Source of the DNA: Paenibacillus sp. JZ16
Lineage (GTDB): Bacteria > Bacillota > Bacilli > Paenibacillales > Paenibacillaceae
DNA length: 64,000 nucleotides
Assembly: GCF_015326965.1 (NCBI RefSeq)
Contig: NZ_CP017659.1
Span: forward strand, 5,708,001-5,772,000
Direction of reading: 5' to 3'
This document shows positions 31,125 to 35,964 of this stretch, piece by piece. Below the pieces are notes generated by a model. It was given only the letters and a program-made list of their open reading frames with translations, was not told where the DNA came from and searched no databases. Both the position numbers and the translations under genes were made by a program. The stretch's first letter is position 1. Each line of letters starts with the position of its first letter.

Positions 31125-31733
31125 ATGCAATTGGATAAGGTGGTTAGTTATCATAAGGCGCTTGCAGACCCGACGCGAATCAAAATGCTGATCCTGTTAG
31201 CCGAAGGCGAATTGAACGGACAGGTGCTGGCCGAGAAGATCGGCGTCACCCCCGCAACGATTACGCACCATGCAGCAAAGCTGCGGGAAGCGAGCCTGAT
31301 TAAAGAGCGCAGGGATAAGAACACGATCTATTTTTCGCTAAATGATTATTTTATCGCAAATAGCGCGAGAGCGACGGAGAATTTGATCTATCAGAGAGTA
31401 AGGCCCGCAGGCGTTCCGGAGCGTTTGGAGGAAGACGATCAGCGGACGAGGGACGCTGTCGTGAAGAATTTTTTCACTTCCGAGGGAAAGCTGAAGAGCA
31501 TCCCTGCCCAGCTGAAGAAGAAACTCATCGTGCTTACGCATATGGTATCCCGACTTGAGAAGGGACGTAAGTACACCGAGAAGGAAATCAACGAGTTTAT
31601 TCAGGGTTACCATGAGGACTTTGCGACTCTTCGCCGGGAGTTCATCATGCATCATTTCATGTTCAGGGATAATGGGGTATATGAGCTCAATCCGCAAGAG
31701 ATGTGGGCACGGTGGGAGGATCTATCCTCATGA
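31125..31733 (+). CDS. ArsR-type regulator with DUF2087 domain
   Basis: 202 residues. The N-terminal winged helix (ALADPTRIKMLILLAEGELN, recognition helix TPATITHHAAKLREASL) is of ArsR type. Residues from about 115 form a DUF2087 domain (VVKNFF, KKKLIVLTHMVSRLEKGRKYTEKE). ATG 31125 is 10 nt from GGGAG; GTG 31113 overlaps that site. No cysteine metal site of classical ArsR proteins is seen. The stop overlaps the start of the sigma-VOC gene (ATGA), so the two are translationally coupled. Confidence 0.85.
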   Translation: MQLDKVVSYHKALADPTRIKMLILLAEGELNGQVLAEKIGVTPATITHHAAKLREASLIKERRDKNTIYFSLNDYFIANSARATENLIYQRVRPAGVPERLEEDDQRTRDAVVKNFFTSEGKLKSIPAQLKKKLIVLTHMVSRLEKGRKYTEKEINEFIQGYHEDFATLRREFIMHHFMFRDNGVYELNPQEMWARWEDLSS

Positions 31734-32659
31734 AAGAGGATTCGCCGCTATCGGAACAACGGATAGAGGATGCTAAAGCGGGGGATTTTGAAGCTTATCG
31801 GATGATTGTCCATCAGTATTCCAATGCCCTGTTATCCGTTGCGTACAGTGTACTGGGGGACTTCCACGAGGCGCAGGATGCCGTGCAGGAGGCGTTTTTG
31901 AAGAGTTACCGTAACCTGCATACGCTGAATGATCCTGCCAAGCTTGGCAGCTGGTTATATGCGATTGCGCACCGGACCAGTCTCGATTTTGCCAAAAGAA
32001 GCAGGCGAACGCTCCCGCTGCATGAAACGGCTTTATCATCGGACAATATCACGCCATGGCTGGAACAATATGTGATCCATGACTCCGTCTGGGGAGCCTT
32101 GCAGGAATTGGAGGAGAAGAGTAAAACCGTTGTCGTCCTGCATTACTTAAGCGAGTGGTCCATGAAAGAGATCGGACAGTTCCTTAATATGTCGGTATCT
32201 GCGGTTGAAAGCCGTATACGACGTGCCAGAGAAGTTTTGAAACAGCATCTTGCCCGTGATTTCGAGCATTATTTCCATACCCATCGTCTGGGAAGGGATT
32301 TCGAGCAGCAGGTCTCGGAGCAAGTCCTTAAGCGAGCCGGTCATTTCTATATTCCAGTCACGGATAAGAGGCAGGCGACCGCATGGTTTATCCTGCATTT
32401 TCATCTGGAAACCAGCAGGCACGGAAATCCGGTACTGGAATCCGGACAGGAATTGTATTTGCTCGAATGTCAGCATCACTCACCGGCCAGCATGCCAGTA
32501 CTCACGTTCGAAGTAGCGAGCGTTGGGCAGTTAGGGCACCGGCTGCATCAACAGGGGGTTAGAAGCGAGCCGATCCGGGAGGATAATGTATTCGGCAAAT
32601 GGCTGGCATTTTACGATCCCGATGGCAATAAGTATCTTGCGATTGAAAAACATGGATAA
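31730..32659 (+). CDS. ECF sigma factor fused to a VOC/glyoxalase domain
   Basis: 309 residues. The first ~170 are an ECF sigma factor: region 2 (AVQEAFLKSYRNLHTLNDPAKLGSW) and region 4 (YLSEWSMKEIGQFLNMSVSAVESRIRRARE). The last ~110 residues form a VOC/glyoxalase fold, ending FGKWLAFYDPDGNKYLAIE. In place of an anti-sigma partner, a small-molecule-binding domain may control activity; this is inference. The start overlaps the ArsR-DUF2087 stop by 4 nt and follows GGAGG. A separate VOC gene follows after 79 nt containing an ATATAGAC/GTCTATAT dyad. Confidence 0.85.
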   Translation: MKEDSPLSEQRIEDAKAGDFEAYRMIVHQYSNALLSVAYSVLGDFHEAQDAVQEAFLKSYRNLHTLNDPAKLGSWLYAIAHRTSLDFAKRSRRTLPLHETALSSDNITPWLEQYVIHDSVWGALQELEEKSKTVVVLHYLSEWSMKEIGQFLNMSVSAVESRIRRAREVLKQHLARDFEHYFHTHRLGRDFEQQVSEQVLKRAGHFYIPVTDKRQATAWFILHFHLETSRHGNPVLESGQELYLLECQHHSPASMPVLTFEVASVGQLGHRLHQQGVRSEPIREDNVFGKWLAFYDPDGNKYLAIEKHG

Positions 32660-33207: not shown

Positions 33208-33252
33208 AGGCAAGCGCTGGCTTTCATAAGGCAGATGGCTTGCCTTTTTTTT
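33208..33252 (+). terminator. intrinsic terminator
   Basis: AGGCAAGC (33208-33215) pairs with GCTTGCCT (33238-33245) and is followed by a T run. It closes the ArsR / sigma-VOC / VOC operon. Confidence 0.75.
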
Positions 33253-33410: not shown

Positions 33411-33674
33411 ATGGAATTCTACCGCTGCATGAACCATCCCGAGAGGGAGGCCGTCGCTCAGTGCACTCGCTGCGGGAAGCCAGTGTGTCAGGAATGCCAT
33501 AATCCGGAGACAGGCCGCTGCCGCTACCGGTGCGGTGAGATGAACCCCGCTCCCGGTATGCCGGGACGGCAAAGGAACGTATGGGTGACCGTGATCATCT
33601 CCATACTGGCCATTTTGGGCGGCCTTGCGCTGCTGCTGCTGACGATTTGCGGCGCAATCTTATTTTCTTATTAA
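33411..33674 (+). CDS. B-box-like zinc-finger membrane protein
   Basis: 87 residues. The N-terminal zinc finger follows the B-box ligand pattern: Cys6-His9-Cys18-Cys21-Cys26-Cys29 (MEFYRCMNHPEREAV, CTRCGKPVCQEC). One transmembrane segment at about 57-80 follows. Similar fingers precede membrane or rhomboid domains in other Firmicutes. It lies 68 nt upstream of the Lgt-like gene and could belong to the same transcript. Confidence 0.7.
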   Translation: MEFYRCMNHPEREAVAQCTRCGKPVCQECHNPETGRCRYRCGEMNPAPGMPGRQRNVWVTVIISILAILGGLALLLLTICGAILFSY

Positions 33675-33742
33675 AATAACGCGTGCCTATTTCCGGTTAG
33701 ATTGCTTTTCCAATTCAAGTTTTGATATCAAGGAGTGGACAG

Positions 33743-34531
33743 ATGGAGTTTCCTGTTTATGTGTACCTGGGTTCCTGGCGGATTCATCCGCACGTGCTGT
33801 TTGAATCGCTGGCCTACTTTATCGGCTTCCGCGTGTATTTATGGACCCGCAGGCCGAGCGGCATGACGAAGCTGATGAGCCTGCAGATTCTGGCTGGAAT
33901 CATTGCCGGCGCGGCCATTGGCTCCAAGCTGCTATTCTGGCTGGAGGATCCGGCCGCCACCTGGGAACAGCTGCGCCAATTCCATCTGCTGTGGGGAGGC
34001 AAGACGATTGTAGGCGGTCTTCTGGGCGGGTTGATCGGCGTTGAGCTGACGAAGCGCTTGGTGGGATGGAAGCATTCCACGGGCGATGATTTTGTTTATC
34101 CGCTGATGCTGGGCCTGGGACTCGGACGGATCGGCTGTTTTCTGACCGGTCTGGATGACCATACCTATGGTACGCCGACGACCTGGTTCACGGGTGTGGA
34201 TTTTGGCGACGGGGTTTATCGCCACCCGACTCAGCTGTATGAGATCCTGTTCCTGATCGTGCTGGCCTTGCTGCTGCTTCCGCTGTACCGCCAAAGCCGC
34301 GGCAGATCCGCTCGCGAGGGCTACGTGTCCGGGCGGATGTTTCAATGGTTCATGGCCGGGTATCTGCTGTTCCGCCTGGTGATCGACTGGATCAAGCCGA
34401 CGCCGCATCCTTACCTGGGACTGAACAATATCCAATTAGCCTGCATCGCGGGCCTCATCTATTATGCGTGGCTGATCGGCGGCAGAAACCGGCTTCGCCG
34501 ATCGATGCCGGGTTCCCAACTTCCAAGCTGA
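33743..34531 (+). CDS. Lgt-like membrane protein lacking catalytic residues
   Basis: 262 residues with about seven membrane segments, matching prolipoprotein diacylglyceryl transferase in layout (LGSWRIHPHVLFESLAYF start, YRHPTQLYEIL near the end). The Lgt signature G-R-x-G-N-F-x-N-x-E is altered: here GRIGCFLTGLDDHTYG, so the conserved Asn is Cys132 and the conserved Glu position is Leu137. It may transfer a lipid in another reaction or only bind lipid. AAGGAGTGG precedes ATG 33743. It is 17 nt before a radical SAM gene, indicating one operon. Confidence 0.75.
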   Translation: MEFPVYVYLGSWRIHPHVLFESLAYFIGFRVYLWTRRPSGMTKLMSLQILAGIIAGAAIGSKLLFWLEDPAATWEQLRQFHLLWGGKTIVGGLLGGLIGVELTKRLVGWKHSTGDDFVYPLMLGLGLGRIGCFLTGLDDHTYGTPTTWFTGVDFGDGVYRHPTQLYEILFLIVLALLLLPLYRQSRGRSAREGYVSGRMFQWFMAGYLLFRLVIDWIKPTPHPYLGLNNIQLACIAGLIYYAWLIGGRNRLRRSMPGSQLPS

Positions 34532-34548
34532 CCAAAGGAGTCTTGATT

Positions 34549-35964
34549 ATGCCAAAAAACCGGCCTTATCTGTATCATGAACTGACCAACAGCATATGCA
34601 CGACCTGTTACCGCAAAGTGGAAGCCAAGATCATCGAGGAGAACGGCATGATCTACATGCTCAAAAGATGCCTCGTTCACGGTCCGGAAAAAGTGCTGAT
34701 CGCAACCGAGGCCGATTATTACCATCAGACGCGAAAGTTCATCAAGCCGTCCGAAATGCCGCTCGTCTGGAATACGCCGATCCGTTACGGCTGTCCTTAC
34801 GACTGCGGACTCTGTCCGGACCATGAGCAGCACAGCTGCCTCACGCTGCTGGAGATCACGGATCACTGCAACCTGCAGTGTCCGATCTGCTTCGCGGAAT
34901 CGTCGCCGCATCGCACTTCCTACAGGTCGCTTGCACAGATCGAATTCATGCTCGACCGGATCGTCGAGAACGAGGGAGAGCCCGACATCGTGCAGATCAG
35001 CGGCGGCGAGCCGACGACGCATCCGGATTTTTTTGACATCCTGGACATGTGCAAGAGCCGTCCCATCAAGCATATTATGGTGAACACGAACGGTATCCGC
35101 ATTGCCCAGGACCGCGATTTTGCGCGGAGGCTCGCCGAATATATGCCCGGCTTCGAAATCTACCTGCAGTTCGACAGTTTTGAGGCGCATGTGCTGAAGG
35201 AGCTGAGAGGGGCCGACCTGCGGCGCATCCGCCAGCAGGCCATTGACCATCTGAATGAATTCAACATATCCACGACGCTGGTCGTCACGCTGAAGAAAGG
35301 CCTCAATGACGGCGAGATCGGAGACATTATTCAGTACGGACTTCAGCAAAAAGCAGTGCGCGGCGTGACTATTCAGCCGATTCAGGCCGCAGGCCGGCTG
35401 GAGGGGTATGATCCGGCAACCGATCGGCTGACCGTGAGCGAAGTCCGGCGGATGATCATCGATCAGTCCGAGGTGTTTACGGATGCGGACATTCTGCCGG
35501 TGCCTTGCCATCCGGATTGCCTGGCGATGGGCTACGCATTGAAGCTGGGCGGGGAAGTGCTGCCGTTGACGCGGATGATCGACCCGGAAATCCTGCTCGA
35601 GGGCGACAGCAACACGATTGTGTTTGAGCAGGATCCGGTCATCCGAAGCAAAATGTTCGAGCTGCTGTCAACGGGCCATTCGCCGCAATCTTCGGCGCTC
35701 TCCCTGAAGAGCCTGCTCTGCTGTCTGCCGCTGGCCGCCGTACCGGAGCAGATTACCTATGACAACGTCTTCCGGGTCATTATCATGCAGTTCCTGGATG
35801 CCCATAACTTCGATGTCCGCTCCGTCAAGAAATCCTGCGTCCACATCATGCATCCCGACGGACGGATGATCCCGTTCGATACCTACAACATGTTCTACCG
35901 GGATGACAAGGAAGAGCTGCTGAAGGAGCTGAAGGCAGAGGTTGCCACGGCCTGGGACCGGTAA
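34549..35964 (+). CDS. multi-cysteine radical SAM enzyme (MJ0619/Tes-like)
   Basis: 471 residues. An N-terminal zinc- or rubredoxin-like part (Cys17/Cys20, Cys41) and a CPYDCGLCPDHEQHSC run (Cys82, 86, 89, 97) precede the radical SAM motif CNLQCPIC (Cys107, 111, 114) and QISGGEPT. The C-terminus carries PCHPDC and further cysteines. This layout is that of the MJ0619 group, which includes pterin methylases and the archaeal tetraether lipid synthase Tes. The substrate here is unknown; the neighbouring Lgt-like gene suggests a lipid. ATG 34549 follows AAAGGAG. Confidence 0.8.
   Translation: MPKNRPYLYHELTNSICTTCYRKVEAKIIEENGMIYMLKRCLVHGPEKVLIATEADYYHQTRKFIKPSEMPLVWNTPIRYGCPYDCGLCPDHEQHSCLTLLEITDHCNLQCPICFAESSPHRTSYRSLAQIEFMLDRIVENEGEPDIVQISGGEPTTHPDFFDILDMCKSRPIKHIMVNTNGIRIAQDRDFARRLAEYMPGFEIYLQFDSFEAHVLKELRGADLRRIRQQAIDHLNEFNISTTLVVTLKKGLNDGEIGDIIQYGLQQKAVRGVTIQPIQAAGRLEGYDPATDRLTVSEVRRMIIDQSEVFTDADILPVPCHPDCLAMGYALKLGGEVLPLTRMIDPEILLEGDSNTIVFEQDPVIRSKMFELLSTGHSPQSSALSLKSLLCCLPLAAVPEQITYDNVFRVIIMQFLDAHNFDVRSVKKSCVHIMHPDGRMIPFDTYNMFYRDDKEELLKELKAEVATAWDR

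Follow-up and report, generated by a model that had tools for sequence, protein, structure and literature searches.

Why would a bacterium keep, side by side, a membrane protein with the fold of the prolipoprotein diacylglyceryl transferase Lgt and a radical S-adenosylmethionine (SAM) enzyme resembling Tes, the synthase that joins lipid chains in archaea? The question is raised by three genes read in the same direction in a stretch of 64,000 nucleotides (nt) from Paenibacillus sp. JZ16 (NZ_CP017659.1, positions 5,708,001 to 5,772,000; hereafter the window), which encode a small zinc-finger membrane protein, an Lgt paralogue and, 17 nt further on, the radical SAM enzyme. The host genome is a single contig of 7.42 Mb, Paenibacillus-type, and the database proteins closest to it carry the names Paenibacillus lautus and Paenibacillus sp. 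ISL-20. A first-pass annotation of the window had described this trio, and its coordinates, the 17-nt gap, the GRIGCFLTGLDD motif of the Lgt-like protein and the cysteine-rich layout of the radical SAM enzyme all proved correct, as did the zinc-finger gene just upstream (33411-33674), which combines PF00643 with one C-terminal hydrophobic helix. Taken together, the Lgt paralogue, the Tes-like enzyme and a third protein carrying a cysteine-containing C-terminal tag suggest an undescribed modification of membrane proteins. In the open-licence literature and family libraries that we searched, we found no description of such a module.

The association of the two enzymes goes far beyond chance. In a family-level sample of 148 genomes, 23 have the radical SAM gene (71-100% identity), and in each of these 23 a close Lgt paralogue (59-100%) immediately precedes it on the same strand; five more lack the radical SAM gene and have no more than a remote PF01790-type match (28-33% identity), and neither gene occurs in any of the 14 other same-genus genomes of this sample. 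At class level, a close radical SAM gene (at least 64%) is present in 27 of 398 genomes, with distant or broken matches in three more, and at phylum level it is close in two of 398 and distant (31-41%) in 31 others, two of which (G330 and G452) also carry an Lgt paralogue within the same gene row. From a scan of named genomes with the Lgt-paralogue alignment (A1) we took the best 80 of 556 confirmed loci; 74 of these have a radical SAM gene of the family (E <=1e-5), although with just 30-32% identity at L159, L184 and L208. The remaining six are L130, L134, L174 and L180, on contigs of 3.5-5.9 kb, L199, where the Lgt paralogue is accompanied by a tagged protein and no radical SAM gene was found, and L194, which may be a true lgt because the adjoining gene is presumably lspA-like. 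The pairing noted in the first pass is widely conserved and the genes are seldom apart in the genomes searched, but it is not a trait of Firmicutes: the loci lie in Cyanobacteria, Acidobacteriota, Xanthomonadales, Bacteroidota, Verrucomicrobiota, Planctomycetota, Bacillota and Marine Group II archaea. A decayed radical SAM copy interrupted by stops was also seen in Bacilli (L113; G582:C1, near 1926272-1926724), with no Lgt paralogue match within the surrounding 19.5 kb.

Two gene orders prevail. In layout A the Lgt paralogue is followed by the radical SAM gene and usually then by the gene of a small membrane protein. In all the lineages just named other than Bacillota, the layout-A radical SAM enzymes share 58-69% identity with that of the window over nearly their full length, which for lineages this far apart is a high value and suggests spread between them. 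Layout B starts with the radical SAM gene and continues with an ICMT/PEMT-type methyltransferase (PF04140), a DUF4395 protein, the Lgt paralogue and a small membrane protein, the Pfam names being those of one locus, L117 (same contig as L129); loci such as L129, L131, L133 and L152 have the methyltransferase and a Cys-rich DUF4395-type membrane protein between the two enzymes. A conserved three-gene order, which the first pass had proposed to check, is not supported, because the upstream zinc-finger gene was seen only in the window and eight other Paenibacillaceae loci (L069-L075, L078); elsewhere the third gene is usually downstream and its product has a different N-terminus. In a tree of 59 radical SAM rows, which carries a long-branch warning (for Tes, L125, L115b and L139 among others), 28 A rows form one group (100/100) and 13 B rows another (100/99), A and B join (89/84), and the Tes and TrsS rows are separate from them (100/99). 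Further branches from loci with an Lgt paralogue comprise L114 and L147 (87/44) and L159, L184 and L208.

A possible substrate of the pair is suggested by this third partner. The proteins encoded beside the pair differ nearly throughout except at the end, where a membrane helix carries a cysteine that in 99 of 109 tagged open reading frames (ORFs) stands 5-13 residues before the C-terminal end. Examples of the tag are FLLNAACFGLV in Bacilli, LLFGACFVS in Clostridium, GFSTCVL in Mucilaginibacter, LLFGFCMLM in a Marine Group II-type archaeon and LLLLTICGAILFSY in the window. We counted tags at 107 loci, namely 67 of the best 80 and 40 of 45 Bacilli loci with a close radical SAM gene. Left out, for a gene not called as its own ORF, were L130, L134, L142, L143, L149, L151, L153, L174, L180, L194, L195, L199 and L208 from the 80 and L074, L076, L077, L096 and L100 from the Bacilli. 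The distant loci L113-L128 lie outside this count, the distant or truncated radical SAM rows L146, L159, L169 and L184 were retained, and four pairs of loci have radical SAM identity of at least 99.5%, three of them being the same contig found twice. Under a strict rule (a Cys close to the end, positions -13 to +3 uncharged and a preceding hydrophobic run), an adjacent tag ORF is present at 95/107 loci versus 14/580 random control intervals in the same loci, these controls being flanks alone while the real loci also count the space between both genes. After clustering, the tag is present in 63 of 74 clusters at 90% radical SAM identity and in 12 of 14 at 65%, where both misses (L146, L169) are contig ends. 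A looser definition gives the same picture: 101 of 111 adjacent small membrane ORFs have a Cys within the last 32 residues, versus 35 of 104 elsewhere.

Lys and Arg are in excess before the helix relative to the stretch after the Cys in 98 of 109 tag ORFs (279 versus 36 residues in total), and the uncharged stretch ahead of the Cys is most often about 20 residues long. Because the basic residues mostly precede the helix, the N-terminus is predicted to be inside the cell and the Cys near the outer face of the membrane. Small residues (Ala, Gly, Ser or Thr), as in a lipobox, occupy position -1 in 73/109 tags and -2 in 91/109. The tag ORFs range from 49 to 373 amino acids, and their front ends include a B-box (window), a zinc-ribbon-like segment (L152), an EF-hand-like segment just at its cut-off (L173) and long regions of unmatched sequence, of up to 361 amino acids (L190). 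Two or three tag ORFs satisfy the strict rule at 13 of 107 loci, although one of the three at L147 resembles a permease, and by eye multiple tag ORFs are also present at L161, L163, L177 and L179. A shared tag on unshared and sometimes multiple bodies resembles the substrates of a modifying enzyme, since a fixed subunit would be expected to conserve its body. Such a partner favours a modification of proteins over a remodelling of bulk lipids, although the radical SAM enzyme may still act on a lipid. The window zinc-finger protein matched no NCBIfam model and, used as a query, found no further paralogue or tagged protein in its own genome (next E 0.19), a search made with the entire protein. 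Marine Group II and related archaea (L173, L178, L188, L190, L193, L207) also have the Lgt paralogue, the radical SAM enzyme and tagged proteins, one of them with an EF-hand-like segment, and, having archaeal lipids, they lend themselves to a test.

The Lgt paralogue does not deserve the name "degenerate" that it had first received, because its donor-activating set is invariant: the equivalents of Arg143, Tyr235 and Arg239 (E. coli Lgt numbering) are present in all 96 relatives compared (aligned rows 225-300 or 225-320 amino acids long, L194 excluded). The E243 position is Asp or Glu and the R246 position Lys or Arg in the same 96, and E202 is kept in 92. Passages of PMC4728403 describe R143 and R239 as essential in E. 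coli Lgt and Arg143, Tyr235 and Arg239 as lining its second lipid site. The signature Asn and Glu are lost, as first proposed: the Asn146 column is Cys in 96/96 relatives, the Glu has no clear counterpart and no intact signature emerges upon alignment. The change from Asn to Cys is no artefact of a single alignment, because all 96 relatives have it while the host's own canonical Lgt, encoded separately at G000:C1:4536815-4537654, keeps GRWGNFVNQE. We also considered a decayed lgt gene and rejected it on account of the paralogue's own invariant positions across its 96 relatives. Against the TIGR00544 equivalog the paralogue reaches 45.7 bits, under the cut-off of 118.9, and among the NCBIfam models matched no Lgt cut-off was passed; its database relatives bear the default name of prolipoprotein diacylglyceryl transferases. 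A third, partial PF01790 match with one internal TGA is found in the host genome (L003; G000:C1:2242094-2242315, 40.5 bits).

The radical SAM enzyme has Tes as its nearest solved relative by both sequence and model (PDB 7tol; template modelling (TM) score 0.79, E 3.3e-38), in agreement with the first assignment, and the next folds are the peptide-modifying radical SAM enzymes SuiB and SkfB (TM 0.36-0.38). Of its 16 cysteines 13 lie outside CX3CX2C, where at least nine had been announced, and C17/C20/C41/H44, C82/C86/C89/H92 and C107/C111/C114 follow the Tes layout. In residue counts that exclude L159, L184, L208, L146 and rows of fewer than 440 amino acids, the three N-terminal metal sites are conserved in layout A (C17 and C20 in 64/70 rows, H44 in 65/70, the remaining ligands in 70/70), and the window enzyme has them all. 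C320, C391 and C392 are present in 70/70 rows, the model being unsure at residues 357-399, which include the last two. The equivalent of Tes Met439 is Met in 65/70, and that of Tyr459 is Ile in the window and in 68/70. The C-terminal Tes motif CC...PFC reads S-C...PFD in the window enzyme: its first Cys is Ser in 60/70 layout-A rows and Glu in 13/15 layout-B rows and its last is Asp in 69/70 and Ser in 13/15, class B being set by gene order here and including L147 and L185 although the tree separates L147 and L114 (same contig as L185). Both cysteines are retained in 7/7 TrsS rows. Since Tes, according to parts of PMC9433317, holds the substrate carbon on cluster sulfur during coupling, the altered cysteine set of the window enzyme may indicate a different chemistry.

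Pfam assigns the window proteins to general families alone, and the radical SAM enzyme passes neither of the two curated cut-offs closest to it. It scores 281.4 bits against the Tes equivalog NF045702 (cut-off 450) and 323 bits against the TrsS equivalog NF045646 (cut-off 490), which L118 and L124 match with 700 and 650 bits. We rejected TrsS identity on this score together with the differing gene context. PF23545, named for a pterin methylase (HMPTM), also matches; at least three database relatives bear that name, and the default names of Tes-like relatives are radical SAM protein or pterin dimethyltransferase, an annotation judged incorrect for MJ0619 in the relevant section of the Tes structure paper (PMC9433317). 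We do not favour a role in defence, the viperin (pVip) model of PADLOC matching only the radical SAM core (47 bits, residues 102-219). The enzyme looks soluble, no long hydrophobic helix being evident in the secondary structure of the model.

We tentatively favour, at somewhat less than an even chance, a dedicated module for the lipidation of membrane proteins whose substrate in the window would be the zinc-finger protein, at Cys80. Substrates would bear a C-terminal tag, a membrane helix that starts on the cytoplasmic side and has a single Cys close to its outer end, in a lipobox-like setting. The Lgt paralogue would bind a lipid of the outer membrane leaflet, activate its C3-O bond with a pair of the Arg143/Arg239 type and transfer the diacylglyceryl group (in archaea, a related group) to the tag Cys as a thioether. 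The lipid would also be the target of the Tes-like enzyme, which would either produce an unusual donor or change the chain once it has been transferred, perhaps by linking it to a further chain. A bolder version, which we regard as unlikely, is a protein-modification system of bacteria and archaea in which the Lgt paralogue lipidates the outer-end Cys tag and the radical SAM enzyme fuses or rebuilds the chains, so that the protein is held by a covalent, possibly membrane-spanning lipid.

Several observations weigh against lipidation of the tag. The strict rule was formulated after the loci had been seen, and 12 of 107 loci fail it (L110, L129, L146, L164, L166, L169, L175, L186, L187, L191, L196, L206). 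Among these, the contig stops within the module at L146 and L169, L129 shows by eye a tag of lower hydrophobicity and the tag of L206 is on the opposite strand. On closer look, L164, L166, L175 and L191 have no tag protein near the pair and L110 none that is convincing, with the reservation that genes are poorly called in GC-rich DNA. In Acidobacteriota (L186, L187 and L196) the small two-helix proteins have their GxCG in an earlier helix and not in the last, with two consecutive such proteins at L187 and L196, and the match at L168 may be due to chance. Position -1 is not small in 36/109 tags, and -3 is mostly Asn or Phe, unlike the lipobox Leu. The paralogue also has Val, Leu or Ile in 96/96 relatives in place of His103, the proposed binder of the lipobox peptide in Lgt, a residue whose equivalent is likewise missing from the host's own canonical Lgt, and Glu151 is lost, its column being mostly Leu or Cys.

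The same genes could instead serve a lipid pathway, as the first pass proposed: a membrane lipid would be synthesized or altered by the Tes-like enzyme and bound or handed on by the Lgt paralogue, while the small Cys protein would be an adaptor anchoring the soluble enzyme at the membrane. This is a serious possibility, if on the unlikely side. The folds of both enzymes agree with it, the methyltransferase of one layout-B locus (PF04140/PF04191) belongs to a family that includes phospholipid methyltransferases, and the radical SAM pair of L115 stands in a gene row with genes that we take to be acyl-carrier-like and FabG-like. An adaptor, however, needs neither an outer-end Cys kept while its cytoplasmic part diverges beyond recognition nor tandem copies, and for the aerobic Bacilli, Cyanobacteria and Marine Group II archaea that carry the module we know of no lipid that the enzyme would explain. 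L115 itself (G330:C39, 6891-11317) has two more Tes-like radical SAM genes in tandem, preceded by presumed acyl-carrier-like, FabG-like and dehydratase-like genes and followed by what seems an alpha/beta hydrolase-like gene, possibly a lipid or polyketide pathway with paired enzymes.

The substrate-like traits of the tag proteins would also fit a radical SAM enzyme that modifies the tag protein itself, for instance through a thioether or C-C crosslink at the Cys, while the Lgt paralogue merely presents the helix or a lipid. SuiB and SkfB are indeed the next folds after Tes, though far lower (TM 0.36-0.38 vs 0.79), but the Cys is predicted outside whereas the enzyme looks soluble, and the Lgt donor-activating residues would have no need for invariance; we consider this quite unlikely. 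Least probable of all, in our view, is an ordinary bacterial Tes or Mss that makes membrane-spanning lipids and has its neighbours by chance. Tes is the closest solved structure, passages of PMC8941075 suggest synthesis of branched glycerol dialkyl glycerol tetraethers (brGDGTs) for bacterial Tes homologues, and Mss/Ger homologues are reported, in the part of PMC13274423 used here, from a few Paenibacillaceae. The window enzyme nevertheless scores 281 against the Tes cut-off of 450, has two CC...C cysteines and the Tyr459 equivalent altered and falls outside the Tes and TrsS group in the tree, and its neighbours are not there by chance.

Positions of the module and its predicted sites in the window are collected in Table 1. 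For the Lgt paralogue we prefer the ATG at 33743, behind AAGGAG, over the listed TTG at 33722, and for the radical SAM gene the ATG at 34549, behind AAAGGAG, the 539-amino-acid ORF from 34345 being merely the longest reading. The terminator-like pattern occurs three times in the stretch versus a shuffle mean of 2.6, so that the hairpin upstream of the module is weak by itself. Further upstream, ORF 31703-32659 encodes an extracytoplasmic function (ECF) sigma factor fused to a partial glyoxalase-like domain (PF00903, 17.9 bits, under its cut-off), followed by a separate glyoxalase gene. In a comparison aimed at a recent insertion with an empty site in relatives, both module-flanking genes were found above thresholds in none of 30 other genomes of the genus (hydrolase in four, glyoxalase in one).

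Table 1. Features of the module in the window, with positions counted from its first nucleotide (aa, amino acids)
Feature	Position	Strand	Basis
Terminator-like stem and T-run between glyoxalase gene and module, possible upstream border of the module	33228-33246	+	pattern scan
B-box-type zinc finger, linker and single C-terminal membrane helix (tail-cysteine protein, predicted substrate)	33411-33674	+	87 aa; PF00643 25.8 bits vs cut-off 24.1
Cys80 codon, predicted modified cysteine (LLLLTIC-GAILFSY)	33648-33650	+	sequence; adjacent Cys-tail ORFs at 95/107 loci
Lgt paralogue, Lgt fold	33743-34531	+	262 aa; PF01790 82.7 bits
GRIGCFLTGLDD, Lgt paralogue residues 128-139; Arg129 = E. coli R143; Cys132 replaces N146	34124-34159	+	alignment
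Tes-like radical SAM enzyme	34549-35964	+	471 aa; PF04055 and PF23545; 7tol E 4.8e-66 (sequence), TM 0.79 (model)
C17/C20/C41/H44, rubredoxin-like metal site of radical SAM enzyme	34597-34680	+	alignment with Tes layout
C82/C86/C89/H92, N-terminal auxiliary cluster site of radical SAM enzyme	34792-34824	+	alignment with Tes layout
C107/C111/C114, radical SAM cluster CX3CX2C	34867-34890	+	alignment with Tes layout
Radical SAM residues 429-444 (S C ... D) at the place of Tes CC ... C	35833-35880	+	Ser 60/70, Asp 69/70 layout-A rows

With this module, the Lgt paralogue and the Tes-like enzyme acquire a common setting that spans at least eight phyla of bacteria as well as Marine Group II archaea. 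As one to three candidate substrates usually lie beside the pair, the role of Tes relatives that do not make tetraethers becomes testable on one protein and one cysteine. If lipidation of the tag is correct, Lgt chemistry would have a second type of acceptor, at the end of a protein and not at its start, and a radical enzyme would enter lipoprotein biology. Tes homologues beside Lgt paralogues should in turn be taken to indicate brGDGT production only where lipid data support it.

Compared with known systems, the radical SAM enzyme shares with TrsS, a radical SAM (seleno)protein, the family and an N-terminal zinc-ribbon-like domain; however, the TrsS-type loci L118, L121, L124 and L127 have no Lgt called alongside, their neighbours being presumably methyltransferase, XdhC-like and aldehyde-oxidoreductase-like genes. 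It resembles Tes (the tetraether synthase GDGT-MAS, MJ0619) throughout the fold, in three of the four metal sites as judged from sequence and in the Met439 equivalent, and it differs in the broken CC...C motif, the changed Tyr459, the score and the clade. The membrane-spanning lipid synthase Mss is likewise a bacterial radical SAM lipid enzyme, and PMC13274423 reports that AlphaFold models of it can be superposed on Tes. Lgt itself (PF01790; PDB 5azb) matches the paralogue in fold and at the R143, Y235, R239, E243 and R246 positions, whereas the paralogue has an invariant Cys for N146, lacks H103 and E151, stays under the TIGR00544 cut-off and adjoins a radical SAM gene. In its general design, the module recalls the sortase and exosortase systems, where a dedicated enzyme is encoded beside proteins that share just a C-terminal membrane sorting tag; here, no sortase is seen, the Lgt paralogue standing in its place, and the tag consists of one Cys behind the helix, followed by few Lys or Arg residues (36 in 109 ORFs).

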